From positions 1 through 31,659 of the IMG/VR virus record IMGVR_UViG_3300046010_007449: a stretch of DNA of 31,659 nt; one strand, 5' to 3'. The notes beneath the pieces are model-generated. The model was given only the letters and a program-made list of their open reading frames with translations, made no database searches and was not told the DNA's origin. Below, one piece after another: positions 1,355 through 31,159 of the stretch; position 1 is the first letter of the stretch, and each line of letters opens with the position of its first letter. The position numbers were made by a program, and so were the translations under genes. The DNA comes from a virus.

Positions 1355-2041
1355 ATGACAGATACGCACAGAAAAAATTTAGAATTGGTTAAAGTAGGGC
1401 ATGCAAATGGTGTTGCACCTGGATTTCCTTTAACTGAACAAGAAAAATGGAAAATGGTAGATGCAGCTGCAGAAGCATATGGAAATTTCTTAGATGCGTT
1501 AGGCTGCGATTGGCGTAATGATCCAAATAGTTCAGATACTCCCCGCCGAGTTGCAAAAGCATATGTATTTGATTTGTGGTCTGGCAGATATACAGAAATG
1601 TCAGATATTACCGCATTTCCAAGTGATGGTTATGATGGCATTGTTCAGGAAAGTAATATACCGGTAACATCGATGTGTTCACATCATCACGAAACCATTA
1701 TGGGTAATGTTAGTATTGCTTATATTCCAGCCAAAGATGGAAAAGTTGTCGGACTTAGTAAATTGAATCGAATCGTAGAGCATTTTGGTAGACGTGGCGC
1801 AATTCAAGAACAATTAACTGTTGCTATACATAATGCTATTGATCAAATATGCGAAGGCAATTTAGGAGTAGCTGTAATGATTAATGCAACTCACAATTGC
1901 GTACAGTGCCGCGGCGTTAAACATAGAGGCGCATCGATGCAAACATCAAAGCTTTCGGGTGCTTTCTTAGACGATCCAGCAGCTCGAGCAGAATTTTATA
2001 AAAACATGGAATTTGCAACTAGTTGTAAACATAATCATTAA
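1355..2041 (+). CDS. folE: GTP cyclohydrolase I
   Basis: Converts GTP to 7,8-dihydroneopterin triphosphate, the first step of both folate and 7-deazaguanine synthesis. The 228-residue length fits the family. Residues C108 and H111 (in CSHHH) and C182 (in ATHNC) match the zinc ligands C110, H113 and C181 of the E. coli enzyme. GLSKLNRIVEHFGRR, the QE(Q/R)LT helix and MQTSKLSGAF are family signatures. A second Cys (C185, in CVQCRG) replaces a usual Met. With queD, queE and dpdA in the same window, the role is probably supply of the deazaguanine pathway rather than folate. The ATG at 1355 was chosen because it follows the preceding stop closely and gives a normal N terminus; no strong ribosome site is visible. 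Confidence 0.95.
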   Translation: MTDTHRKNLELVKVGHANGVAPGFPLTEQEKWKMVDAAAEAYGNFLDALGCDWRNDPNSSDTPRRVAKAYVFDLWSGRYTEMSDITAFPSDGYDGIVQESNIPVTSMCSHHHETIMGNVSIAYIPAKDGKVVGLSKLNRIVEHFGRRGAIQEQLTVAIHNAIDQICEGNLGVAVMINATHNCVQCRGVKHRGASMQTSKLSGAFLDDPAARAEFYKNMEFATSCKHNH

Positions 2042-2825: not shown

Positions 2826-3302
2826 ATGGCACGGTATTTAAGTACAAAAAGATTTGATAATTACTCAGTTGCAATACGCCAATGGAAAGCTCAACATTCT
2901 CATTGTCAGCTTCTCCACGGATATGCACTTAAGTTTAAAGTTTGGTTTGCATCTAATGAACCAGATATTGATAAACAATTAGATGATATGAATTGGATTG
3001 TTGATTATTCAGGATTTAAACCTGCTCCGCAAGGTAATGGATTAAAAGATTGGATGAACCATATGTGGGATCATACTACACTTATTCAAGCTGATGATCC
3101 ATATCGAGATATGTTTGAGATGCTTCAAGTATCCGGTTTAGCAAAAGTGCACTTCTTAGAAAAGATGGGTGCCGAATCATGTGCTAAATTAGTTTATGAT
3201 AAATTCAATGAAGTATTGTCAAAGACCGATGCTGGTCGATGTAAATGCATCAAAGTAGAATGTTTTGAAAACGATAATAATTCTAGTATATATGAAGAGT
3301 AA
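2826..3302 (+). CDS. queD: 6-carboxy-5,6,7,8-tetrahydropterin synthase (QueD)
   Basis: A tunnel-fold enzyme that converts dihydroneopterin triphosphate to 6-carboxytetrahydropterin, step 2 of 7-deazaguanine synthesis. C27 (in HSHCQLLHGY) matches the catalytic Cys. The DH pair (WDHTTL), the GAESCAKLV helix and the final VECFEN Glu match the family. Oddly, of the three zinc histidines of the E. coli enzyme (H16, H31, H33) only H31 has a clear equivalent: position 33 is Tyr, and the first may be replaced by H24 or H26. I recall this HGY form from phage QueD proteins, so it may be a phage subfamily. The 158-residue length is longer than bacterial QueD (about 120), with extra sequence after residue 40. 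The stop overlaps the next gene. Confidence 0.88.
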   Translation: MARYLSTKRFDNYSVAIRQWKAQHSHCQLLHGYALKFKVWFASNEPDIDKQLDDMNWIVDYSGFKPAPQGNGLKDWMNHMWDHTTLIQADDPYRDMFEMLQVSGLAKVHFLEKMGAESCAKLVYDKFNEVLSKTDAGRCKCIKVECFENDNNSSIYEE

Positions 3303-3663
3303 TGATCAATACATGTCCCTGTATGATTACAGTGGTAAAGCATCTCGCGAATCCGGATTAGGTCAAAAGGTGTATGAAGCTGCAAAGGAAAAAAACATTC
3401 ACGTTATATATCAAGATTTACCGCCGGACTTATCAAGACCAGAATACAATCGAGTAGCAACATATCCTAAGTCATTTTTAGATGAATATTTTGGTAAGAC
3501 TACACCTAGTGATACATTTGCTTCTGAACTAGCACATTCTGATTTAGTTTATTTGATTGAAAGATTAGAAGCATTAGAAAAAAAGTTTGCAGAAGCAATA
3601 AAGAAATTAGAAACAAATGTTGCCGATAATATTAAGTCAGTCGATGACGACTTACCATTTTAA
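3292..3663 (+). CDS. Unknown protein with an SSB-like acidic C-terminal tip
   Basis: I do not recognise this 123-residue protein. It lies between queD and queE. The first 70 residues are mixed polar sequence with a YDYSGKASRESGLGQK stretch. About residues 76-110 are rich in Glu, Lys and Leu and look like a coiled coil. The last six residues, DDDLPF, closely match the acidic tip of bacterial single-stranded DNA-binding proteins (DDDIPF), which docks onto replication and repair partners, but no OB-fold is apparent. Start choice is uncertain: ATG 3292 overlaps queD by 11 bases, and ATG 3265 or 3313 are alternatives. A role in deazaguanine synthesis is suggested only by position. Confidence 0.65.
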   Translation: MKSNDQYMSLYDYSGKASRESGLGQKVYEAAKEKNIHVIYQDLPPDLSRPEYNRVATYPKSFLDEYFGKTTPSDTFASELAHSDLVYLIERLEALEKKFAEAIKKLETNVADNIKSVDDDLPF

Positions 3664-3670
3664 AGAATTT

Positions 3671-4447
3671 ATGAAACCAGGAAGAATAACAGACTACAAC
3701 AAAACGTTACCGATCGTAGAATTGTACCGATGTGTGCAATCAGAAGGAAGTCGTTTCGGTAGACCAACTATTGCAGTAAGAACAACCGGATGCACACATC
3801 GATGCTATTTTGGTGAGGGTGGATGGTGTGATTCGTGGTATACATCAATACATCCAGAAAAAGGTACTTTTACATTCAATGATATTATTAAAATTTACGA
3901 CGAAAATCCACATATTAAAGAAATGATGTTAACTGGAGGATCACCAACAATGCATCCGGCACTAGTTAATGAATTGACACATTTTGCACATGAAAGAGAT
4001 ATTCTTATTACTATTGAAACTGAAGGTTCTCATTATATTGAAACTGATTACCCTATTGGCCTCCTTTCTATTAGTCCTAAGTTTGCCAATAGCATACCCG
4101 TTGTGGGTGTTGCTACACCGCAAGGGACGATTACGGATGAAAAGATGGTTAACCAACACAATAAATTCCGTCTCAATCACGAAGCGATAGATTTCATGTT
4201 AGCATATCATACGGATTATCATTACAAACCAGTTTGGGATGGCACTACGGAAAATTTACATGAAATTGAATTGTTTAGGATTCAACATAATATTCCAAAA
4301 AACAAAACATACGTTATGCCGGCCGGCGATACTAGAGAGGAACTTGTTAAGATGTATCCGTTAGTATTCGAAATGTGTGCAGAACATGGTTATAACATGA
4401 CAGGAAGAGACCACATAATAGCATGGGATACGCGCCGCGGGGTGTAA
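3671..4447 (+). CDS. queE: 7-carboxy-7-deazaguanine synthase (radical SAM, QueE)
   Basis: Radical SAM enzyme that contracts 6-carboxytetrahydropterin to 7-carboxy-7-deazaguanine (CDG). VELYRCVQSEGSRFGRPT is the QueE N-terminal signature (the usual form is SxQGEG.xxGxP). The iron-sulfur motif is GCTHRCYFGEGGWCDSW, a C-x3-C-x7-C spacing instead of the radical SAM C-x3-C-x2-C, with the normal WCD after the third Cys. MLTGGSP matches the GGE-type SAM-binding motif but has Ser in place of Glu. SISPKFANS is the usual substrate-side SPK motif. The start at ATG 3671, 8 bases after the preceding stop, gives a natural N terminus of 258 residues. Upstream ATGs at 3644 and 3617 would overlap the preceding gene. 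Confidence 0.9.
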   Translation: MKPGRITDYNKTLPIVELYRCVQSEGSRFGRPTIAVRTTGCTHRCYFGEGGWCDSWYTSIHPEKGTFTFNDIIKIYDENPHIKEMMLTGGSPTMHPALVNELTHFAHERDILITIETEGSHYIETDYPIGLLSISPKFANSIPVVGVATPQGTITDEKMVNQHNKFRLNHEAIDFMLAYHTDYHYKPVWDGTTENLHEIELFRIQHNIPKNKTYVMPAGDTREELVKMYPLVFEMCAEHGYNMTGRDHIIAWDTRRGV

Positions 4448-6013: not shown

Positions 6014-6231
6014 TAGAATCTATCGGATGGATTAGCACGGCGTTGGTATTGTTAGGATATATTACCAACGCCAATGGCTTAACTAAAACTGCCATGATCT
6101 CTTGGATTATTGGAGATATTGGTTGGATCGTATATGATATTTTTATATATAACATCAGCCATATGTTTTTAAGTTTTGTTATAATTTGTATTAATTTATA
6201 TGGCATTTATAGATTATGGAAAAAATATTAG
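6010..6231 (+). CDS. Small membrane protein, three predicted helices
   Basis: A 73-residue hydrophobic protein with about three membrane segments (residues 5-23, 29-47, 50-68) separated by short polar turns, ending in RLWKKY on the likely cytoplasmic side. The pattern of WIIGDIGWIVYD and CINLYGIYR recalls small PnuC-like or CBU_0592-like proteins, but I cannot assign a family. It overlaps the co-chaperonin by 4 bases and the following phosphoribosyltransferase gene by 16. Confidence 0.65.
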   Translation: MIESIGWISTALVLLGYITNANGLTKTAMISWIIGDIGWIVYDIFIYNISHMFLSFVIICINLYGIYRLWKKY

Positions 6232-6722
6232 AATTTAATCATATACAACATCGAGTATCAGAATTAGCTCAAGAAATTTCAAATGACCACATTCAATCCG
6301 GCAATATATTGCCTCCGGTAATGATATGTGTATTGAATGGTGCATTACATTTCTTTTCTGATTTAACAAGATATATGTCAATTGATTGTGAAATAGATTT
6401 TATTCGTTTGAAATCATATGACGGACAAGATAATTCAGGTGGCGTACACATTATCAAAGATTTAGAATTAGAACTCAAAGGAAAGCGAGTTTATATTGTT
6501 GATGATATTTTAGATACCGGTGCAACCATAATAGAAGCATTGCATATGATATCTAGCAAAATAGCTCTAGAAGTAAAAGTTGTCACGTTATTAAAAAGAA
6601 AATCTAGTCCAATGAACCCCGATCTTTATGGATTTGAAATTGGAGATGAATGGGTGGTTGGTTACGGATTAGATGATTATGGATTAAAACGAGAATTACG
6701 AGACATATATAAAATTAATTAA
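6216..6722 (+). CDS. hpt: Hypoxanthine/guanine phosphoribosyltransferase
   Basis: A 168-residue purine salvage enzyme that joins hypoxanthine or guanine to PRPP, giving IMP or GMP. The PRPP loop VYIVDDILDTGAT (about residues 92-104) is diagnostic. LNGALHFFSDL matches the HPRT loop with the non-proline cis peptide. The C-terminal EWVVGYGLDDYGLKRELRDI matches the Hpt signature with the catalytic DY...R region. In a phage that swaps guanine for a deazaguanine, this enzyme could recycle the guanine released by DpdA; that is inference. It overlaps the preceding membrane-protein gene and lies 3 bases before the polymerase gene. Confidence 0.93.
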   Translation: MEKILEFNHIQHRVSELAQEISNDHIQSGNILPPVMICVLNGALHFFSDLTRYMSIDCEIDFIRLKSYDGQDNSGGVHIIKDLELELKGKRVYIVDDILDTGATIIEALHMISSKIALEVKVVTLLKRKSSPMNPDLYGFEIGDEWVVGYGLDDYGLKRELRDIYKIN

Positions 6723-6725
6723 ACT

Positions 6726-9236
6726 ATGGCATATCAAGCAATCGGGTACGATAAGAAAAATGGAATAATGCACGTATGGGATGATGAATTAGGACATCAA
6801 AAATTTCCATTTCAGCCATACGGATATTTACCAAACCCAACCGGACAATATCAATCATTAGATGGAACTAAATTAGATAAAGTTCTGGGTAATCATCGCG
6901 ATAATCCTAAATCATATGAATCTGATTTAAATGAAGAAGTCCGGACATTAATCGATTTGTATTATGAATCAGATGAACCATCTAAAGGACATCGCGATTT
7001 CTTTTTTGATATTGAAACGGCAAAAGATGAAAATGGATATAGTACCATCGATGATGTACGAACTGCAATTACTTCAATTGCATATTATGATAAAGCCGGC
7101 AAAGATCGACGAGTTTTAATTTTAGATGAACAGAATAGAATTAAAGACCAAGAGATACAAGGTGATGGATATACATTAGAAATATTTCGAGATGAGCGAG
7201 ATTTATTAACTAGATTCATAAATAAATTTGCTGAAATACAGCCTACAGTAATTACTGGTTGGAATACTGATGGATATGATGTTCCGTATTTAATTGGTCG
7301 ATGTAAAAAAGTATTAGGTGCACAAACTGTTAAAAAACTATCACCTGCAGGTATTGTTGAACAAAGTAAATCAGGCAAATGGAAAATATTAGGTGTATCT
7401 AGTTTAGATTATTTAAAATTGTATAAAAACTTTACATATACAGAATTACCAAATTATCGATTAGATACGGTTGCTAAAACAGAATTAGGCAGAGGTAAAG
7501 TTGAATATGATGGTGATTTAGATACATTGTTTACTCAAGACATTCACAAGTTTGCTTATTATAACATGACAGACGTTGATCTAGTTTATGAATTAGATGA
7601 AAAACTTCAGATGTTAAGTTTAGCACGAACGATTTGCCATAAAGGTCACGTTCCATATGAAGATGTATATTATGCATCTAAATATCTAGATGGTGCTGCA
7701 ATAGTAGATTTAAAACGTAATGGTTTTGTAGCTCCCAATAAACAATTTAGATTTATTGAAGAAGAAACAATGTCTGATGCGTTAGAAGGTGCATATGTCA
7801 AAGCACCAGTACCTGGTTTATATAAATGGATCTATGACTTAGATTTAACATCACTATATCCTAGCATCATTATGACACTGAATATTTCTCCTGAAACTAA
7901 AATCGGTGTTATATCGAATTGGAATCAAGAATGCATGATGCGAGATGAACCAACTCACGCAATAATAAACGGACAGTCAATTGCAGATATCAAATCTTGG
8001 TTAGTTGAAAATAATTATAGTATTGCTAGCAATGGCACTGTTTATAGAAATGATCAACGAGGGTTCTTGCCAACAATTCTAGAAAAATGGTTTGACGAAC
8101 GGGTAATATTCAAAGACAAACGAGATACTTATGAAGTTGGAACTGAAGAATATAAATTTTATGATGCTCTGCAGTTAACACAAAAAGTATTGCTCAATTC
8201 ATTCTATGGTGTTTTAGGATTAAAAACATTTCGATTTCATGATTTAGATAATGCAGGCGCAATTACAGCTGTTGGCCAAAGTATAATTAAATTTTCTGGT
8301 CGTGTTATTAACAATCAATATCAAAAAGAATTAGGCATTGACCATTTTATTAATGCAAGTGGAGATAAAGCAGAATTTGCATTTTATACAGATACAGATT
8401 CAACTTTTTGTAGTAGCGAACCATTAATTACAAAACGTTTTCCGGGGTGCAATACTGAAGATGAACAGTTTATGATTGAACAAACGAATGCAATTGCATC
8501 TGAAATTCAAGGCACTGTTAATACCATGTATAATCAGTATGCTAAAGTATTTCATAATACCGATAAACATCGATTCCAAATCAAGCAAGAATACATTGCA
8601 AAATCAGGTTTGTGGATTGCAAAAAAGAGATATGCTCAATGGGTTATATTTAGAGAAGGCAAACCTACAGATAAATTAGATGTAAAGGGATTAGATGTTG
8701 TTAGGTCAAGTTTTCCTACGGATTTCAAAAAGATAATGAAAGAAACACTTTGGTATATTCTCAAAGGAAGAGACAAACAAGAAACATCTACATTGATACA
8801 TGATTTCAAAAGTAATATTAAGAAATCAGAAATATTGAATATTATGAAGAATTCAAGTGTTAAAGAATTATCTAAATATATAAAAGGACGAAAACCATTT
8901 ACGGGATATATAAAAGGATCTACGGCACATGTTAAATCCGCTATCAATTTCAATGATATGTTAACACGATTAGATACTGATATATTGCCTATATCTGACG
9001 GTGAGAAAATTAAATGGGGCTACTTGCTTAATAATCCATATGGATTCAATACAATTGCATTACGAGGATATCAAGATCCCCCGGAGATAGTTGCATTTGT
9101 AGAACAATATATTGATAGAAATAAAATGTTTACATCAGATCTAAGTAATAAATTTGACGATTTTTATTCAGCAATGGGATGGGGTCAATTACCAGAAAAT
9201 AATAATGCAAATAAATTTTTTACATTTGGAAAGTAG
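6726..9236 (+). CDS. 43: Family B DNA polymerase with 3'-5' exonuclease (T4 gp43-like)
   Basis: The 836-residue replicative polymerase. Exonuclease motifs are ExoI FFFDIETA (about 92-99), ExoII ITGWNTDGYDVPY (about 176-188) and ExoIII YYNMTDVDL (about 278-286). Polymerase motifs are A, DLDLTSLYPSI (about 371-381); B, KVLLNSFYG (about 487-495); C, YTDTDST (about 555-561); and the later KKRYA. All catalytic acids appear intact. T4 gp43 has 898 residues, so this is slightly shorter. The C-terminal tip NKFFTFGK is a candidate clamp-binding peptide, since T4 gp43 ends in a motif that binds gp45. A similar tip ends the DpdA protein (NKFFTF). Confidence 0.97.
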   Translation: MAYQAIGYDKKNGIMHVWDDELGHQKFPFQPYGYLPNPTGQYQSLDGTKLDKVLGNHRDNPKSYESDLNEEVRTLIDLYYESDEPSKGHRDFFFDIETAKDENGYSTIDDVRTAITSIAYYDKAGKDRRVLILDEQNRIKDQEIQGDGYTLEIFRDERDLLTRFINKFAEIQPTVITGWNTDGYDVPYLIGRCKKVLGAQTVKKLSPAGIVEQSKSGKWKILGVSSLDYLKLYKNFTYTELPNYRLDTVAKTELGRGKVEYDGDLDTLFTQDIHKFAYYNMTDVDLVYELDEKLQMLSLARTICHKGHVPYEDVYYASKYLDGAAIVDLKRNGFVAPNKQFRFIEEETMSDALEGAYVKAPVPGLYKWIYDLDLTSLYPSIIMTLNISPETKIGVISNWNQECMMRDEPTHAIINGQSIADIKSWLVENNYSIASNGTVYRNDQRGFLPTILEKWFDERVIFKDKRDTYEVGTEEYKFYDALQLTQKVLLNSFYGVLGLKTFRFHDLDNAGAITAVGQSIIKFSGRVINNQYQKELGIDHFINASGDKAEFAFYTDTDSTFCSSEPLITKRFPGCNTEDEQFMIEQTNAIASEIQGTVNTMYNQYAKVFHNTDKHRFQIKQEYIAKSGLWIAKKRYAQWVIFREGKPTDKLDVKGLDVVRSSFPTDFKKIMKETLWYILKGRDKQETSTLIHDFKSNIKKSEILNIMKNSSVKELSKYIKGRKPFTGYIKGSTAHVKSAINFNDMLTRLDTDILPISDGEKIKWGYLLNNPYGFNTIALRGYQDPPEIVAFVEQYIDRNKMFTSDLSNKFDDFYSAMGWGQLPENNNANKFFTFGK

Positions 9237-9259: not shown

Positions 9260-9685
9260 ATGATTGGTTATAGAACTCATTGGTATGGTAAAGAAGTAGA
9301 AGGTCGTTTTACCGACATCGAAACATTATTTATTGCAGATATCAAAGCACTTGATAAAATTGTACAAGGAAAAATTGCTCATGTTTATTTTTGTTCAGGT
9401 GCTACGGCACAATTAATTGAACATAATAAATGGGATATGGTATTTAAAATGATATCTGATACTAGCTTCGTAACAATCGAAGTTACTCCGGGTATGTTAG
9501 AAAAAATACCTCCAATGATTAGAATTCGTGCACACATCTTATTAATGTTAGATTGCAAAGATGCTGAATTATTAAAAAAGACAGACAGCATAAAAGTTGT
9601 GTATGCAGATTATTCATTGTATTGTACAACTGTGCACAATATGCAACAAGTAACACCTGATGATTATAAATTTGACAGACAATGA
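9260..9685 (+). CDS. Hypothetical protein, 141 residues
   Basis: No family recognised. The sequence looks like an alpha/beta domain with repeated hydrophobic strands (HVYFCSGA, FVTIEVTP, HILLMLDC, IKVVYADY) separated by helices. It lies between DNA polymerase and a nucleotidyltransferase and overlaps the latter by 4 bases (ATGA), so a related task is possible. The start has AAGG just upstream. Confidence 0.7.
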   Translation: MIGYRTHWYGKEVEGRFTDIETLFIADIKALDKIVQGKIAHVYFCSGATAQLIEHNKWDMVFKMISDTSFVTIEVTPGMLEKIPPMIRIRAHILLMLDCKDAELLKKTDSIKVVYADYSLYCTTVHNMQQVTPDDYKFDRQ

Positions 9686-10098
9686 AAATAGGAGTTATAG
9701 CAGGTAATTTTGATGTAATACATCCAGGTTATATTTACATGTTTAAAGAATGTGAAAAAAATTGCGATCAATTGATAATTTTATTGCATGAAGATCCAAC
9801 AATTGAGCGTCCGACAAAGTTAAAACCGGTATTGTCAACATATGAACGCCGCGAGATGTTAACGTATCTTGTTAAAGGATGCATAGTAATGACTTATAAT
9901 ACAGAAGCTGAATTAACATTCTTATTACAATCAATTGAACCGGATGTTAGATTTTTAGGCGATGATTATCGATTTGCAGACTTTACCGGTGCAGAATTAA
10001 GAATTCCTATTCATTATATTGATAGATTTCACGGATGGTCGACAACAAAATATAAACAGTTAATTTCAGATGAAGTACAGCGTAGTAGTAACATTTAG
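9682..10098 (+). CDS. Cytidylyltransferase-like nucleotidyltransferase (TagD/RfaE-like)
   Basis: A 138-residue protein of the HxGH nucleotidyltransferase superfamily, which includes glycerol-3-phosphate cytidylyltransferase and ADP-heptose synthase. GVIAGNFDVIHPGY (residues 4-17) is the nucleotide-binding motif, but the second His of HxGH is Tyr (Y17), which may weaken catalysis. RREMLTYLVKG and LGDDYRF match the family middle. WSTTKYKQLI near residue 120 takes the place of the usual ISSTxIR motif. The substrate cannot be told. It lies away from the sugar cluster and next to the tunnel-fold protein, whose gene it overlaps by 29 bases. Confidence 0.75.
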   Translation: MKIGVIAGNFDVIHPGYIYMFKECEKNCDQLIILLHEDPTIERPTKLKPVLSTYERREMLTYLVKGCIVMTYNTEAELTFLLQSIEPDVRFLGDDYRFADFTGAELRIPIHYIDRFHGWSTTKYKQLISDEVQRSSNI

Positions 10099-10420
10099 TA
10101 TCGAAGGATTTCATAATTGGCCTTCTGCCAAAGATATTTTTCCAGAAGTAGCATTCTTATCGGATAGACACAGACATATGTTCGGATTTCGTTGTTATGC
10201 AACAGTAACACATACGGACCGAGATAAAGAATTTATTTTATTGAATCGTGAAATAAAAAGATGTCTTCAATTATATTTTGAAAAAGATGTTACCAATGTA
10301 TTAGAATTTGGATCAATGTCTTGTGAAGCTATTGGTGAATGGTTATTAGATCAGTTTCCAGAATTATACAAAGTAGAAGTATTTGAAGATTGGGAGAATG
10401 GTGCAATCATTGAAAGATAA
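10070..10420 (+). CDS. Tunnel-fold (QueD-like) paralogue near dpdA
   Basis: A 116-residue protein that resembles QueD in layout. H15 (GFHNW), H34 and H36 (RHRHMF) are spaced like the zinc triad H16, H31, H33 of E. coli QueD. A SMSCEAIGEWLLDQF helix matches NPTSEVLAKWIW, and VEVFEDWENGAII matches the final VKETxxxxxIY strand with its Glu. The catalytic Cys four residues before the HxH and the DH pair of QueD are not evident, so the chemistry should differ. It complements the QueD at 2826-3302, which keeps the Cys but lacks most of the His triad. I recall a QueD-like decarboxylase called DpdL proposed in phage deazaguanine pathways; membership is unproven. The start overlaps the preceding gene by 29 bases. 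Confidence 0.7.
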   Translation: MKYSVVVTFSIEGFHNWPSAKDIFPEVAFLSDRHRHMFGFRCYATVTHTDRDKEFILLNREIKRCLQLYFEKDVTNVLEFGSMSCEAIGEWLLDQFPELYKVEVFEDWENGAIIER

Positions 10421-10421
10421 G

Positions 10422-11450
10422 ATGAAGATATTTTTAGTAGACATAGAATCAGTACCAACACGGTATACTTGTGAGTGGAAGACACATATTCCAAAATTAT
10501 TACGAGATAACGGGTTTGATGTTGTAGTTGTAGAGGGAGATTTAACAATCCCAGAAGCAACGACACCCGGAGCTTTTTTAAATTTCGGTGGTACTAATAT
10601 GTATAAAGCAACACAAGTACATAAGTTAGCAGAATTGTTTACGCGTGGGCTTATCAAACCAGGAGACCATATTATTTTTACAGATGCATGGCATCCAGGC
10701 GTTATCAATGTAAAATATATGAGCGAACTTCTAAATATTCCCGTTGTAATGCATGGGTTATGGCACGCGGGTTCATATGATCCAAATGATTTTTTAGGTC
10801 GTCTCGTAGGAGATACGCCCTGGATACGACACGCTGAACAAGCAATGATTGCATCATATGATCATAATTGGCTAGCAACGGCAGCACATTTTAATTTAAT
10901 GCGTAAAACATATGATATATTTTTAAATCAAACGTTTAATAAAACGGGCTGGCCAATGGAATATACACGTGATATGATTACAGCTAGACCTTGGAATCAA
11001 AAACAAGATATTATTGTATTTCCACATCGAATTGCACCAGAAAAGCGTTTAGATTTATTTCAAAAACTTGCAAGTAGACCTGAATTATCACACTATCGAT
11101 TTTGTGTAGCAATGGAAATGAACTTAAATAAACGACAATATCATGAATTACTTCAACGTGCACGATTTGCAGTATCATTTGCAGAACAAGAAACATTGGG
11201 CATTTCAATGTATGAATCAGCCTGCGCAGGGGCTTGTCCAATTGTACCTACTAGATTATCATATGTAGAAATGTATGATCCAATGTTTAAACATGCAAAC
11301 AGCGTTGATGATGCAGTAAATACAATTTTAAAATACGAGAAGATGGATTTATCTAAACAAATTGAAAAATTAGTAGATAAATTGCATACTAATTATTTTT
11401 CAGCAATTAAATTAATTAATAAACTAAAGGAATACGATGGAAGAAAATAA
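10422..11450 (+). CDS. GT-B glycosyltransferase next to dpdA
   Basis: A 342-residue protein with a GT4-like C-terminal half: FPHRIAPEKRLDLFQKL (acceptor/nucleotide region, about residues 199-215) and FAEQETLGISMYESACAGACP, whose E-x7-E (ETLGISMYE) is the sugar-nucleotide motif. The N-terminal half has Rossmann-type strands (IFLVDIES, FDVVVVEG, HIIFTDAWHPG). It sits among replication and DNA-modification genes, not in the glycan cluster. It starts 1 base after the tunnel-fold gene and overlaps dpdA by 14 bases. DNA base glycosylation, as by T4 GT-B enzymes, is one possible role. ATG 10422 was chosen over 10383 because MKIFLVDIES is a natural first strand. Confidence 0.8.
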   Translation: MKIFLVDIESVPTRYTCEWKTHIPKLLRDNGFDVVVVEGDLTIPEATTPGAFLNFGGTNMYKATQVHKLAELFTRGLIKPGDHIIFTDAWHPGVINVKYMSELLNIPVVMHGLWHAGSYDPNDFLGRLVGDTPWIRHAEQAMIASYDHNWLATAAHFNLMRKTYDIFLNQTFNKTGWPMEYTRDMITARPWNQKQDIIVFPHRIAPEKRLDLFQKLASRPELSHYRFCVAMEMNLNKRQYHELLQRARFAVSFAEQETLGISMYESACAGACPIVPTRLSYVEMYDPMFKHANSVDDAVNTILKYEKMDLSKQIEKLVDKLHTNYFSAIKLINKLKEYDGRK

Positions 11451-12696
11451 AAAGTTCATATACTTTCCTTCATTATCTGCAGGATCAATGGTATCTGCAT
11501 TTAAGAAAGATATGAAATTTTCAAATGGAGATCCTGTAAAGTTTTTCGATTCACGTTATCCAAAAGAATGGAGGCATCCATATTTTTTGGTTACGGCCGG
11601 ACATCATTACAAGAAAATGGATTTTCGTGATCAACTAGGATTAGAAAAAGATGTACTAGTATTTGGTGACTCTGGAGGCTATCAGATAGCAACCGGAGCA
11701 TTACCGTATAGTAATGCATTACGAGAAAAAATCTTTCATTGGTTAGAAGCAAATTCAGATGTAGCTGCTAATTTAGATATTCCACCAAAGACTAAATATA
11801 AAAATAAATTTGCAGAATGTGCAGATATTAGTTATGATAATTTTGCTTGGTTTGAAAAAAATCAGAGTGGAAAAACTAAATTCTTAAACATGTTGCAAGG
11901 ATCGAATACCGATGAGTATACATGGTGGTATCATAAATTTAAGCATTTTGATTTTCAAGGATGGGCGATTGGAGGTCCTCAAAAATTAGTGGATTTCATG
12001 TTTGCTATATCTTTGATGTTGAAAGAACGAGAATTTGAAAATAAACGTTTAGAATATGTTCACTTATTAGGAATTAGTAAGATTTCAGATTTCTTTATTC
12101 TGTCAACGTTACAGAAACTAATGAATGAATTAACTGGTAATAGAATTTATATAACAACAGATTCAAGTTCGCCAGGACAATATCCGGTATTTGGAACATA
12201 TTTGCATTCTACAAATTACAAAACACAAACATTCTCAGAATTATATTTTCCTAAAAATGCTGAATATCGCAGACAAGCACATATTCGTCAAGGTAAAACC
12301 GGAGAAGTTGCAATCGATTTAACTCAACATGTTCCATGTGTATTAGGATGTCCTGCGTGTGAAGATTTTACATATGACTATTTAGGAGGACAAACATCCA
12401 CCGGATTAGATCGATATTCACAAGAAGCTATGCCTAGGATGGTTGTTCACAATACACATTTGTATGTACAAGCAGCGAATGAGATTAATCGATTAGTTGA
12501 CAGTCATGTAGAATTATTAGAAACAGTAGTGCCTAAAGATTTATATGATGTAATTTTATCATTACATGAAATGTTTGCCAATCCGGATGAAGCTCCGCAG
12601 GTATACGAAAAATACATTAAAACATATAAAAAATTCGGCGGAAGTAGTATATCAACTACCGATGCAGAAAATTTTAATAAATTCTTTACATTTTAA
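11437..12696 (+). CDS. dpdA: DpdA-type DNA guanine transglycosylase
   Basis: A 419-residue member of the tRNA-guanine transglycosylase superfamily, of the type that exchanges guanine in DNA for a 7-deazaguanine. FGDSGGYQIATG carries D78, matching the catalytic Asp of TGT (DSGGFQ). ITTDSSSP carries D242, the candidate nucleophile. MLQGS matches the VVQGG loop. The zinc site is C301, C305, C308 (CVLGCPAC) plus H338 or H341 (VHNTH). The spacing C-x3-C-x2-C differs from the C-x-C-x2-C of tRNA enzymes. The HVPCVLGCPAC context and length resemble phage DpdA as I know it. folE, queD and queE in the same window supply the substrate. AAAGGA lies upstream. The C-terminal FNKFFTF resembles a clamp-binding peptide. 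Confidence 0.9.
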   Translation: MEENKKFIYFPSLSAGSMVSAFKKDMKFSNGDPVKFFDSRYPKEWRHPYFLVTAGHHYKKMDFRDQLGLEKDVLVFGDSGGYQIATGALPYSNALREKIFHWLEANSDVAANLDIPPKTKYKNKFAECADISYDNFAWFEKNQSGKTKFLNMLQGSNTDEYTWWYHKFKHFDFQGWAIGGPQKLVDFMFAISLMLKEREFENKRLEYVHLLGISKISDFFILSTLQKLMNELTGNRIYITTDSSSPGQYPVFGTYLHSTNYKTQTFSELYFPKNAEYRRQAHIRQGKTGEVAIDLTQHVPCVLGCPACEDFTYDYLGGQTSTGLDRYSQEAMPRMVVHNTHLYVQAANEINRLVDSHVELLETVVPKDLYDVILSLHEMFANPDEAPQVYEKYIKTYKKFGGSSISTTDAENFNKFFTF

Positions 12697-17954: not shown

Positions 17955-19445
17955 ATGGAGTTACCAAAATTAAAAAAAATCGATCCGAACAAACCAGCAA
18001 AAAAGAAAATTTTATTGTTAGCAGATGATTTTCGTTTGCCATCTGGAATTGGAACAATCAGTAAAGAAATTATTTTCAACACAGTTAAAGAATTTGATTG
18101 GATTCAAATTGGAGGTGCAATTAATCACCCAGACGCCGGAAAAGCATTTGATATGTCTGCAGAAATTGCACACGAAACTGGTATAGCAGATGCATCCGTT
18201 AAACTAATTCCATATAATGGATATGGTGATCGTAATATTCTATTTGCAATCTTAAATCAAGAACAACCCGACGCAATTCTTCATTTTACAGACCCGCGTT
18301 ATTGGACTTGGTTATATGCATTAGAACATGAAATTAAAACAACATTTCGTATTCCAATTACATATTATTCCATATGGGATGATTTACCGTATCCTATGTG
18401 GAACGCCCCATATTACGGGTCATGTGATATGATTATGGGAATTAGTAAGCAATCGGATAATATTCATAGAGAAGTTCTTAAACAGAACGGATTTGGGGTG
18501 GTAGATTACGATGATGGAGATTCAGTACCCGCAGATATTAAATGGAATGAAGTAATCACCGGTTTTGTGCCTCACGGATTAAATCATAACACGTTTATAC
18601 CAATTTCTAAAGATTCTGAAGAATACAAACAAATGCATTCTAGAATTAAAACTAATAATAATGTTGATTTTGTAGTAATGTGGAATAATCGCAATATTAG
18701 ACGTAAACAGCCTGGCGATTTAATTCTATCATTTAAACATTTTGTTGATAAGTTACCGAAAGAAGATCAGTCTCGTGTAGCTCTATTAATGCATACACAA
18801 GCAATTGACGACAATGGAACAGATCTTAGAACTGTAGCAAAATCATTAGCCCCAAATTGTAAAATAATCTTTTCAGAACAAAAAATGTCAGCAAAAGAAT
18901 TAAATGCAATGTATAATGTAGCTGATGTTGTAGTGAATATAGGTTCTAATGAAGGATGGGGTCTTAGTTCAACCGAAGCAATGCTATCAGGCACGCCAAT
19001 TATTAATAATGTTACTGGCGGATTGCAAGATCAATGTGGATTTACGGATGAAAATGGTGAATGGGTTCGATTCAATGGTAAATTTTCAACAAATCATACC
19101 GGGCAATACAAGAATCACGGAGAATGGGTGAAACCAGTATTTCCTAGTAATCGTTCATTGCAAGGATCTCCGCAAACACCGTATATTTTTGATGATCGAG
19201 TAAATTTCGAAGATGTTGCTGATGCTATTATGTATTGGTATGAGATGGATGAGGCGGAACGAATGGTATGTGGTATGATGGGACGTAGTTTTTGTTTTGA
19301 TAACGGATTAACTGCGGAATCAATGGGTAATAAAATGATTGAGATGTTCGGCTATTTATTTACAGCTGATAAACAACCAAGACCTTTATATACTCTAAAC
19401 AAAGTAAATGCAGTAAAATACGAACAAATGGGAATAGTAGAATAA
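17955..19445 (+). CDS. GT4-like glycosyltransferase, 496 residues
   Basis: A GT-B enzyme. The N-terminal domain begins ILLLADDFRLPSGIGTISKEI, a typical GT4 glycine-rich loop. The C-terminal domain has NNVDFVVMWNNRNIRRKQPGDL, a GT4 second-domain opening strand, and NEGWGLSSTEAMLSGTPII, whose E-x7-E is the sugar-nucleotide site. The extra N-terminal tail MELPKLKKIDPNKP contains LPKLKK, which recurs at the C terminus of the next enzyme. Donor and acceptor are unknown. The start has AAAAGGA upstream. It overlaps the next gene by one base. Confidence 0.88.
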   Translation: MELPKLKKIDPNKPAKKKILLLADDFRLPSGIGTISKEIIFNTVKEFDWIQIGGAINHPDAGKAFDMSAEIAHETGIADASVKLIPYNGYGDRNILFAILNQEQPDAILHFTDPRYWTWLYALEHEIKTTFRIPITYYSIWDDLPYPMWNAPYYGSCDMIMGISKQSDNIHREVLKQNGFGVVDYDDGDSVPADIKWNEVITGFVPHGLNHNTFIPISKDSEEYKQMHSRIKTNNNVDFVVMWNNRNIRRKQPGDLILSFKHFVDKLPKEDQSRVALLMHTQAIDDNGTDLRTVAKSLAPNCKIIFSEQKMSAKELNAMYNVADVVVNIGSNEGWGLSSTEAMLSGTPIINNVTGGLQDQCGFTDENGEWVRFNGKFSTNHTGQYKNHGEWVKPVFPSNRSLQGSPQTPYIFDDRVNFEDVADAIMYWYEMDEAERMVCGMMGRSFCFDNGLTAESMGNKMIEMFGYLFTADKQPRPLYTLNKVNAVKYEQMGIVE

Positions 19446-28919: not shown

Positions 28920-29887
28920 TACAAATTAATTTATTTAACAGTTCAGAAAGTCAATATAGATTGCCGCTTGTTAAAGCTGCATTAAAAGAATTTTCTAATA
29001 TTAAATCTGAAAACAAACAAAAAGTACATCTCGTTGTATATTTCCATGAAAAAAATGAAGAAGTATGGAATGAATTATTATATCCTGTAATCGAAGCAGG
29101 TATTGATGTTTCAGTAGCAGCAATGCCAGCTGATACATATATGGATAAGGTTACTATTGCAACCCAATCTGAATATCCTTATTTATGTAAATGGGATGAT
29201 GATGTATTTATCAATCGATATGTCTGGGACTTCATGATCGAAAATGTATCAGTTGTCGATCGACCAGATGTGAGTGTTTTAGCACCTACATTATCTAATG
29301 GTATGCCATCATTAGGTTTATTTATTGAAGATTTTTTAAATGAAGCGGAAACGTCAAAAGTACATGAAATTTTCTTAAAGGATAACGTTGTACCGGATAT
29401 TTGGGGATGTAATCATCATGCAGTATACAATGCTGTAAAAAATATGGATCATTGGGATGATAGAAAGTATTGGAAACTTGTCGATACAAATAATCCAATT
29501 AAAAATACAAATCATCCGTGGCATATGTTTTTAGCAAAAGGTTTGCACCCAGGTAGATTTTCATATGATTACAATATGTTCTTAGCAAAACATGCAGAAA
29601 ATAATATCGAAAAATTATTAGAACCAAATGATTATTTTTTAGATACATATAAAGCTCCATATTTTTGTAATAATTTATTTATTTCAACAACGGAATTTTT
29701 TAGAGAATCGCAAAAACTTTTCTTCAATCATTGGGATGAAGGACAAATGACAGCGTATATGAATTTACTTGATCAAGTACCAATGTTTGTCAGAAACTGT
29801 TACGGTATACAACCTGCATATGGATGTACTGTTAATCAAAAAGAAATTGAAAATTATTATATATCTAACATATTTGAAAAACTATGA
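28916..29887 (+). CDS. GT-A-like glycosyltransferase, 323 residues
   Basis: I cannot name the family. LCKWDDDVFINRYVWDFMIE (about residues 93-112) is a typical GT-A metal motif (DDD) followed by a helix, with strands VHLVVYFHE and IDVSVAAMPAD before it. HPWHMFLAKGLHPGRFSYDY could be the acceptor-side loop. The ATG at 28916 overlaps the previous stop (ATGA); an earlier in-frame ATG at 28847 lies inside the preceding gene. It overlaps the next gene by 4 bases. Confidence 0.7.
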   Translation: MIQINLFNSSESQYRLPLVKAALKEFSNIKSENKQKVHLVVYFHEKNEEVWNELLYPVIEAGIDVSVAAMPADTYMDKVTIATQSEYPYLCKWDDDVFINRYVWDFMIENVSVVDRPDVSVLAPTLSNGMPSLGLFIEDFLNEAETSKVHEIFLKDNVVPDIWGCNHHAVYNAVKNMDHWDDRKYWKLVDTNNPIKNTNHPWHMFLAKGLHPGRFSYDYNMFLAKHAENNIEKLLEPNDYFLDTYKAPYFCNNLFISTTEFFRESQKLFFNHWDEGQMTAYMNLLDQVPMFVRNCYGIQPAYGCTVNQKEIENYYISNIFEKL

Positions 29888-30525
29888 AACAATTATTAAA
29901 TGTAGATTTAATATCTATTAACTGTGTCAATCCTGAACAAAGTGTAAAAGCATTATTACATAGTTCGCAACATATAGAATTTGGATCAATAAAATTATTT
30001 GCACATTATAAACCAGATAATTTACCAGATCATATTCAATATATTCAAACTGAAAAATTAACACATCAAACAATCAATTGGTTTGCATTAAACAAATTAT
30101 CAGATTTTATTGACAATGAATATATGTTATCAATTCATGATGATGGTTTTATTATCAACCCGCATTTATGGTCAGACGAATTTTTAAAATATGATTATAT
30201 CGGTGCGCCATGGCCAGTACTGGATTGGTGTTCGAAGAATCGAGTAGGTAATGGAGGATTTGTTTTAAAAAGTAAAAAATTCATGAATTTAGAACAATCA
30301 CTTCCTAAATCAGATGATCATAATGATACTGTAGTAACTAATACATACTATGACTTCTTTAAAATGTATGGTTGTAAATATGCACCTATAGATGTTGCAA
30401 TGAAATTTTCATTAGAACATGCAATACCAGAATGCGAATATAATTTAGAAAATACATTTGGCTTTCATGGAAAATTAGATGAACAAGCATTAAACAAAAT
30501 TAAATTATTGGAGAAATATGATTGA
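29884..30525 (+). CDS. DUF5672-like glycosyltransferase-related protein, copy 1
   Basis: A 213-residue protein. The core IHDDGFIINPHLWSDEFLKY then DYIGAPWP and RVGNGGFVLKSKKF match the DUF5672 family, thought to be glycosyltransferase-like: a D-x-D-type acidic motif, then YDYIGAPW and VGNGGFSLRS. The next gene is a tandem paralogue, and the two share a 74-base identical stretch. C-terminal KYAPIDVAMKFSLE and FGFHGK are also shared. It overlaps the next gene by 8 bases. Confidence 0.82.
   Translation: MKQLLNVDLISINCVNPEQSVKALLHSSQHIEFGSIKLFAHYKPDNLPDHIQYIQTEKLTHQTINWFALNKLSDFIDNEYMLSIHDDGFIINPHLWSDEFLKYDYIGAPWPVLDWCSKNRVGNGGFVLKSKKFMNLEQSLPKSDDHNDTVVTNTYYDFFKMYGCKYAPIDVAMKFSLEHAIPECEYNLENTFGFHGKLDEQALNKIKLLEKYD
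30133..30206 (+). repeat. 74-base direct repeat, copy 1 (in DUF5672-like gene 1)
   Basis: Bases 30133-30206 are identical to 30770-30843, in the same frame of the neighbouring paralogue. After one mismatch, 8 more bases match. The block encodes the core motif from IHDDGF to YIGA. Flanking parts of the two genes differ much more. Confidence 0.95.
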
Positions 30526-31159
30526 TTTAACAAATGTAACAATATTGTCAATAAACACGCACGCCCCGGAAATGTCTGTACGTGCATTACAATATAGTTC
30601 TAAAGAAATTAATTTTAAAAATAAAAAGATATTATCTAATAGGATTCCTAATAATTTAACTGATGATATCGAATTTATACAAATACCAGAATTCCACGGA
30701 CGAGATCAATATAGTGATTTCGTAATGAACAATTTAAGTGATTATGTCGATGGTGATTTTGCTATGATGATTCATGATGATGGTTTTATTATCAACCCGC
30801 ATTTATGGTCAGACGAATTTTTAAAATATGATTATATCGGTGCACCATGGCCCGGACCGATAGAACAAACTACAGAAAGAGTTGGCAACGGAGGATTTTG
30901 TATCCGAAGTAAAAAATTAATTGATTTTTGTAAAACTATAAAAGCAGAACCAGGTCATGATGATTGGACTATAGGAGTAACTCATAATAAGTATTTACGA
31001 GAACAAGGATTTACATTTGCTCCGGTACATGTTGCAATGAAATTTTCTTTAGAATCTGTAATATCGGAATGTCTTTTTGATTTAACACAAACATTTGGAT
31101 TTCATGGTAAACGTCATCCATCAACTCAATCAATGATAAATTTATTAAATGAAATATAA
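30518..31159 (+). CDS. DUF5672-like glycosyltransferase-related protein, copy 2
   Basis: A 213-residue paralogue of the preceding gene, with the same length. Shared core: IHDDGFIINPHLWSDEF, YDYIGAPWP and RVGNGGFCIRSKK; shared end: FAPVHVAMKFSLE and TFGFHGK. The N-terminal 80 residues differ, mainly in the substrate-facing part, so the two may act on different acceptors. The copies arose by tandem duplication. The start overlaps the end of copy 1, with GGAG upstream. Confidence 0.82.
   Translation: MIDLTNVTILSINTHAPEMSVRALQYSSKEINFKNKKILSNRIPNNLTDDIEFIQIPEFHGRDQYSDFVMNNLSDYVDGDFAMMIHDDGFIINPHLWSDEFLKYDYIGAPWPGPIEQTTERVGNGGFCIRSKKLIDFCKTIKAEPGHDDWTIGVTHNKYLREQGFTFAPVHVAMKFSLESVISECLFDLTQTFGFHGKRHPSTQSMINLLNEI
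30770..30843 (+). repeat. 74-base direct repeat, copy 2 (in DUF5672-like gene 2)
   Basis: Second copy of the identical block described at 30133-30206, 637 bases downstream. Confidence 0.95.

Follow-up and report, generated by a model that had tools for sequence, protein, structure and literature searches.

A glycosyltransferase encoded beside a DNA guanine transglycosylase in a T4-like phage fragment probably attaches a sugar to a 7-deazaguanine once the transglycosylase, DpdA, has inserted that base in DNA; we put this reading at roughly 60%. The fragment, which is 31,659 bases long and makes up a complete IMG/VR record, is referred to below as the window, and its glycosyltransferase gene (GT) lies between the gene for a QueD-like tunnel-fold protein (TF) and dpdA. 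The TF-GT-dpdA arrangement is not a product of chance, since most of the lineage's IMG/VR loci share it, with tight overlaps and spacings, and a strong case can be made that GT is a pathway enzyme linked to DpdA, not a stray glycan gene.

Gene organization of the window

GT (10422..11450, plus strand; ATG at 10422, stop at 11450, 342 aa) encodes a GT-B/GT4-type glycosyltransferase. It starts 1 base past the TF gene (10070..10420, plus strand, 116 aa; phrog_17812), whose product is classed by its predicted fold, and overlaps dpdA (11437..12696, plus strand; ATG at 11437, stop at 12696, 419 aa), encoding a DNA guanine transglycosylase of the TGT superfamily, by 14 bases (11437-11450). The original prediction had described both junctions in these terms and had placed GT among replication genes, 6.5 kb from a glycan cluster, and its description is accurate: the neighbours are DNA polymerase, clamp-like and clamp-loader-like genes, and the cluster begins downstream at 17955. 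Within the glycan cluster, two adjacent genes (29884-30525 and 30518-31159) encoding 213 aa each share long identical stretches (FIINPHLWSDEFLKYDYIGAPWP) and represent a tandem duplication.

The window also encodes FolE (GTP cyclohydrolase I; 1355..2041, plus strand), QueD (2826..3302, plus strand) and the CDG synthase QueE (3617..4447, plus strand), which together constitute the route from GTP to 7-carboxy-7-deazaguanine (CDG). FolE and QueD display 46% and 41% identity, respectively, to the annotated proteins of phage ACP17, and QueE falls in the same ORF family as the annotated QueE of ACP17 and Paride. A search of the window for QueC found none. A small protein (9260..9685, plus strand), which differs in sequence between phages with the two GT types described below, weakly matches the ACP17 gp122 family in profile alignments (its counterpart in locus L083 lies at 7320-7718) and is a possible DpdA accessory. 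A nucleotidyltransferase-like gene (9682-10098, PF01467) overlaps the start of TF and is present in many, not all, related loci.

DpdA types

HMMER searches with the Pfam TGT family (PF01702) gave no match at E 1 in 12 phage records, including that of Vibrio phage 2.275.O, and DpdA was therefore tested by profile alignment. With hhalign, the window protein aligned to E. coli Tgt over 214 columns (E 3.9e-7), the DSGG[FY]Q motif included, which bears out the earlier naming of 11437-12696 as dpdA; base insertion itself is predicted. DpdA2 of Vibrio phage nt-1, the DNA of which contains dPreQ0, dADG and dG+, was likewise found via its context, not by PSI-BLAST (PMC6884629).

The type present in the window was named DpdAw. 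Its relative in Vibrio phage 2.275.O adjoins queF, a yhhQ-type transporter gene, queC and folE in a preQ0-type cluster. Phages ACP17, X1 and BUCT-ZZ01 carry another type (phrog_10773), homologous to nt-1 DpdA2 (E 8e-38). The name DpdA3-like is used for a different, shorter protein of the phiST type, which has no direct match to E. coli Tgt and is treated as a putative transglycosylase because its profile matches that of DpdAw, though weakly (E 1e-4).

GT accompanies TF and DpdA across phage loci

Searching IMG/VR with the window GT retrieved 80 loci, and TF, GT and DpdA stand together in nearly all of those that are sufficiently long: 68 show both TF and DpdA, and the other 12 have GT close to the end of a contig. 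Of 57 loci scored for the GT-DpdA junction, 55 have an overlap of 1-20 bases; the distance from TF to GT falls between -4 and +11 in 57 of 67. The original prediction had named close GT homologues in phages lacking dpdA as counter-evidence; wherever the sequence sufficed, no close homologue was seen without DpdA or TF. Xanthomonas phages PhiXhv-12/15/16 and Erwinia phage Ep032, which lack dpdA, have GT-like genes that were considered as counterexamples and set aside; the PhiXhv-15 gene, the one inspected, is about 23% identical and, lying with genes for a BshB-like deacetylase and for glucosamine synthase, belongs to a different GT4 enzyme. These BshA-like GT, deacetylase and synthase genes of PhiXhv-15 (L247, 6744-9978) make up a separate small pathway. 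PADLOC holds no model for GT, DpdA or TF.

A search with TF, not GT, as the query also gave 80 loci. Among these, GT was present in 59 of 59 loci with a DpdAw or DpdA2 type versus 0 of 12 with a DpdA3-like protein; seven of the remainder carry GT with no DpdA in view, and two carry neither. After dereplication at 75% TF identity the figures were 23/23 versus 0/8, counts that still carry phylogenetic dependence. When the neighbouring ORFs were clustered, the GT family fell in 63/65 GT-type loci versus 0/14 DpdA3-type loci, and family-level searches yielded at least 596 GT and at least 594 TF homologues. Membership of GT in the DpdA pathway, as originally proposed, is thus supported, and both its exclusion from DpdA3-like loci and the joint exchange of GT and DpdA alleles (below) add weight to it.

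The same ORF clustering found a phosphoribosyltransferase family, represented in the window at 6216..6722 (plus strand; PF00156, E 1.3e-24), in 41/65 GT-type loci versus 1/14 DpdA3-type loci; it also occurs in L081, L099, L165 and L234. The window enzyme might serve in salvage of the guanine freed by DpdA.

Predicted structures of GT and TF

A sequence search of the window GT against PDB sequences gave no meaningful match, and its Pfam match to PF00534 (Glycos_transf_1; E 6.1e-5) lies slightly under the gathering cut-off. The AlphaFold2 model (mean pLDDT 94.3) has a two-domain GT-B fold whose best structure matches are GT4-type enzymes such as BshA and sucrose-phosphate synthase (Z 25-26.6, at least 300 residues aligned), confirming the GT-B assignment that had been made for 10422-11450. 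The EX7E motif corresponds to E257-E265. Among 53 GT family members, with identities down to 20%, the donor-site residues Arg203, Lys208 and Glu265 are invariant, and the first Glu of the motif, Glu257, is either Glu or Asp. Basic overall charge was considered as a sign of DNA binding, and the GT family is not basic. GT is likeliest to be an NDP-sugar-dependent glycosyltransferase of the DpdA pathway, its use of a sugar donor being predicted.

The AlphaFold2 model of TF (pLDDT 93.8) matches E. coli QueD over 106 residues (Z 12.4, rmsd 2.2), in agreement with the tunnel-fold call for 10070-10420. Three His that match the zinc pattern of QueD are retained in TF, as are conserved acidic residues close to its end. 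In alignments inspected by eye, an invariant Leu of TF occupies the position of the QueD catalytic Cys and the Asp-His segment is absent. Lacking both features, TF is a relative of QueD, not QueD itself, and its reaction is probably a different one. It may be the CDG decarboxylase DpdL; Cui et al. 2023 reportedly described such a CDG decarboxylase together with 7-deazaguanine in phage DNA. A macro-domain annotation on a Rhizobium phage gene adjoining TF received no confirmation from Pfam.

Five complete GT phage genomes carry no clear QueC

The TF-GT-DpdA set is also found in unrelated isolated phages: in the Pseudomonas Paride/PA5oct group and in Acidovorax phage ACP17, Xanthomonas phage X1 and Synechococcus phage BUCT-ZZ01; Sinorhizobium phage Phosso has the same set with DpdA elsewhere in the genome. 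QueC was absent at the family cut-off from the complete genomes of these five, with one sub-threshold match in X1, whereas Vibrio phage nt-1 and Pseudomonas phage pf16 (DpdA2) and Vibrio phage 2.275.O (DpdAw-type) have QueC and do not appear among the GT or TF matches. Phages thus display two patterns, QueC without GT, or TF and GT without a clear QueC. Since the complete GT genomes contain no clear QueC, the precursor is probably CDG rather than preQ0, and GT probably accompanies a base derived from CDG.

Weak matches resembling QueC occur at a distance from the module in a few IMG/VR records with GT; several are other PP-loop proteins. The exceptions are a 210-aa protein of record G005 (L089, 1084-1713, minus strand) and a protein of Vibrio phage D479 (L243, 1024-1857, minus strand), off-module PP-loop proteins with a cysteine cluster that look QueC-like; a weak match in G018 is counted with them. 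The ThyA family (PF00303) is absent from the complete ACP17, X1 and BUCT-ZZ01 genomes and from five large IMG/VR records. With several complete GT genomes devoid of ThyA-family hydroxymethylase candidates, hydroxymethylcytosine (hmC) or hmU is unlikely as the acceptor.

GT and DpdA are exchanged as a pair

The same slot is filled by two GT types, GT-1 and GT-2, that are only about 20% identical. Record L168 has a backbone close to that of the window (clamp loader 97%, QueE 93% and TF 91% identity) but differs in GT (19%), DpdA (72%) and the small protein at 9260 (30%). This small protein diverges sharply in GT-2 phages (30-35% identity), as GT and DpdA do.

Trees were built from up to 55 related loci bearing GT-1 or GT-2. 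The distribution of GT types requires a single change on the DpdA tree (support 100/100), versus six on the TF tree and five on the clamp-loader (gp44) tree, and a single GT-2 clade is rejected on the latter two (AU p 2.6e-6 and 4e-4, respectively). Quick trees gave four changes for the polymerase, two for the clamp and two for the 9260 protein. GT and DpdA therefore move between phage backbones as a pair, and TF does not follow. The gene overlap accounts for part of this linkage, yet the equally close TF stays behind. Movement of GT with DpdA and without TF fits a substrate shared by GT and DpdA, with TF supplying a common precursor.

Chromosomal copies

A collection of bacterial and archaeal genomes also contained GT, in 21 contigs, several of which probably derive from phages. 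In Azospirillum, Devosia, Sulfitobacter, Shimia and Pelagibacterium, GT and DpdA follow a gene for a Vut_1 protein, a family to which the deazaguanine transporter YhhQ belongs, and TF is not adjacent; in Magnetospirillum, GT adjoins both TF and DpdA. It appears from this context that the GT-DpdA pair persists where the base is probably imported. Some of the alphaproteobacterial Vut_1-GT-DpdA loci (L253-L258) have recombinase-like genes nearby, and the Shimia locus (L256) is close to Lamassu LmuA/LmuB genes. A second glycosyltransferase gene is present in the same clusters in BUCT-ZZ01 (L099, 6358-7701), Shimia (L256, 14275-15468, minus strand) and Sulfitobacter, with about 32% identity between the BUCT-ZZ01 and the Shimia/Sulfitobacter proteins; its product could extend the sugar.

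Discussion

We propose a pathway in which FolE, QueD and QueE would produce CDG, the route probably stopping short of preQ0, and the QueD-like TF would process CDG. DpdA would then exchange the TF product for guanine in the phage DNA, and GT would add a sugar to the inserted base, likely after insertion by analogy with T4, which glucosylates hydroxymethylcytosine in this way. The sugar on the base may have a role against restriction. The nature of the acceptor is a puzzle if TF is a CDG decarboxylase, as a decarboxylated base would offer no obvious acceptor at C7; a bare C7 would mean that TF does something else, or that the sugar is carried on the carboxylate or another atom.

The joint change of GT and DpdA alleles would also be expected if the sugar came first, with GT glycosylating a free deazaguanine (for example at the CDG carboxylate, forming an acyl glycoside) and DpdA having to accept each glycosylated base. 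CDG does carry a carboxylate, a group through which bases are known to be hypermodified, albeit by amide formation (PMC12783734). However, glucosylation by T4 takes place on DNA, post-replication (PMC13216743), and the known substrates of DpdA are small bases; we consider this order of events, the leading alternative, rather unlikely. It is improbable that GT has some other target, be it a different DNA base, a surface glycan or a protein of phage or host, and is tied to dpdA merely genetically. GT4-type enzymes are known to use many acceptors and the window does contain a large glycan cluster, but GT accompanies two types of DpdA, in numerous phage lineages as well as on bacterial chromosomes, and is absent from DpdA3-like loci, and the lack of ThyA-family candidates in the complete ACP17, X1 and BUCT-ZZ01 genomes speaks against hmC or hmU.

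If GT were a physical subunit of DpdA, binding DNA or nucleotides through its GT-B fold with no catalysis of its own, strict pairing and joint swapping would be expected as well, and TF loci with a DpdA3-like enzyme do lack GT. The donor-site and EX7E residues, however, are invariant or conservatively changed in proteins at 20-23% identity to the window GT, which is unusual for a dead enzyme and makes such a role highly improbable. Glycosylation by GT of the base already inserted by DpdA is the reading we prefer. The odds seem to us about even that glycosylated 7-deazaguanine is, more broadly, a widespread hypermodification of large tailed phages and some bacterial integrative elements, made from carboxy-deazaguanine by a QueC-free route, with the sugar changed through swaps of GT-DpdA cassettes bearing one of two enzyme types.

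Several known systems resemble the proposed one in part. Glycosylated queuosine in tRNA likewise bears a sugar on a 7-deazaguanine in a nucleic acid, there on the cyclopentenediol of queuosine. Phages of the type of Cellulophaga phiST, which we take to be a DpdA3/DpdL-type phage, share FolE, QueD, QueE, TF, a putative transglycosylase and the absence of QueC, but lack GT and have the different, short transglycosylase candidate. The DpdA/DpdA2 systems, such as that of Vibrio phage nt-1, share FolE, QueD, QueE and a DpdA-type transglycosylase, whereas GT phages have no clear QueC and carry TF and a glycosyltransferase instead; the text describing those systems does not mention glycosylation, and no QueA, QueG or QueH was reported in phages (Hutinet 2019, PMC6884629). 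The alpha- and beta-glucosyltransferases of T4, which act on 5-hydroxymethylcytosine (PMC13216743), also have features of the present case: a T4-like phage with a GT-B enzyme, a proposed sugar on a modified DNA base and alternative GT types among related phages. The acceptor proposed here is, in contrast, a base-exchanged deazaguanine rather than hmC, and several complete GT genomes lack a ThyA-family enzyme.

The original prediction had noted no described glycosylated 7-deazaguanine in DNA, and literature searches likewise found none, a mention elsewhere being possible. A jumbo-phage survey from 2021 mentions a deazaguanine system in PA5oct, with no GT named for it in the passages concerned, and a search of the MIJ3 and Paride papers found no passage on DNA modification in these phages. 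As far as the literature was searched, the GT-DpdA module probably represents a new variation on phage DNA hypermodification. The module is common (at least 596 GT and at least 594 TF homologues) and is present in the cultured phages Paride, PA5oct and ACP17. If the proposal is true, a DNA base derived from guanine and carrying a sugar would constitute a new class of DNA hypermodification and of phage escape from restriction, the swapping of GT alleles would be a counterpart to the varied sugars of T-even phages, and the chromosomal GT-DpdA copies raise the question of what use bacteria make of it.
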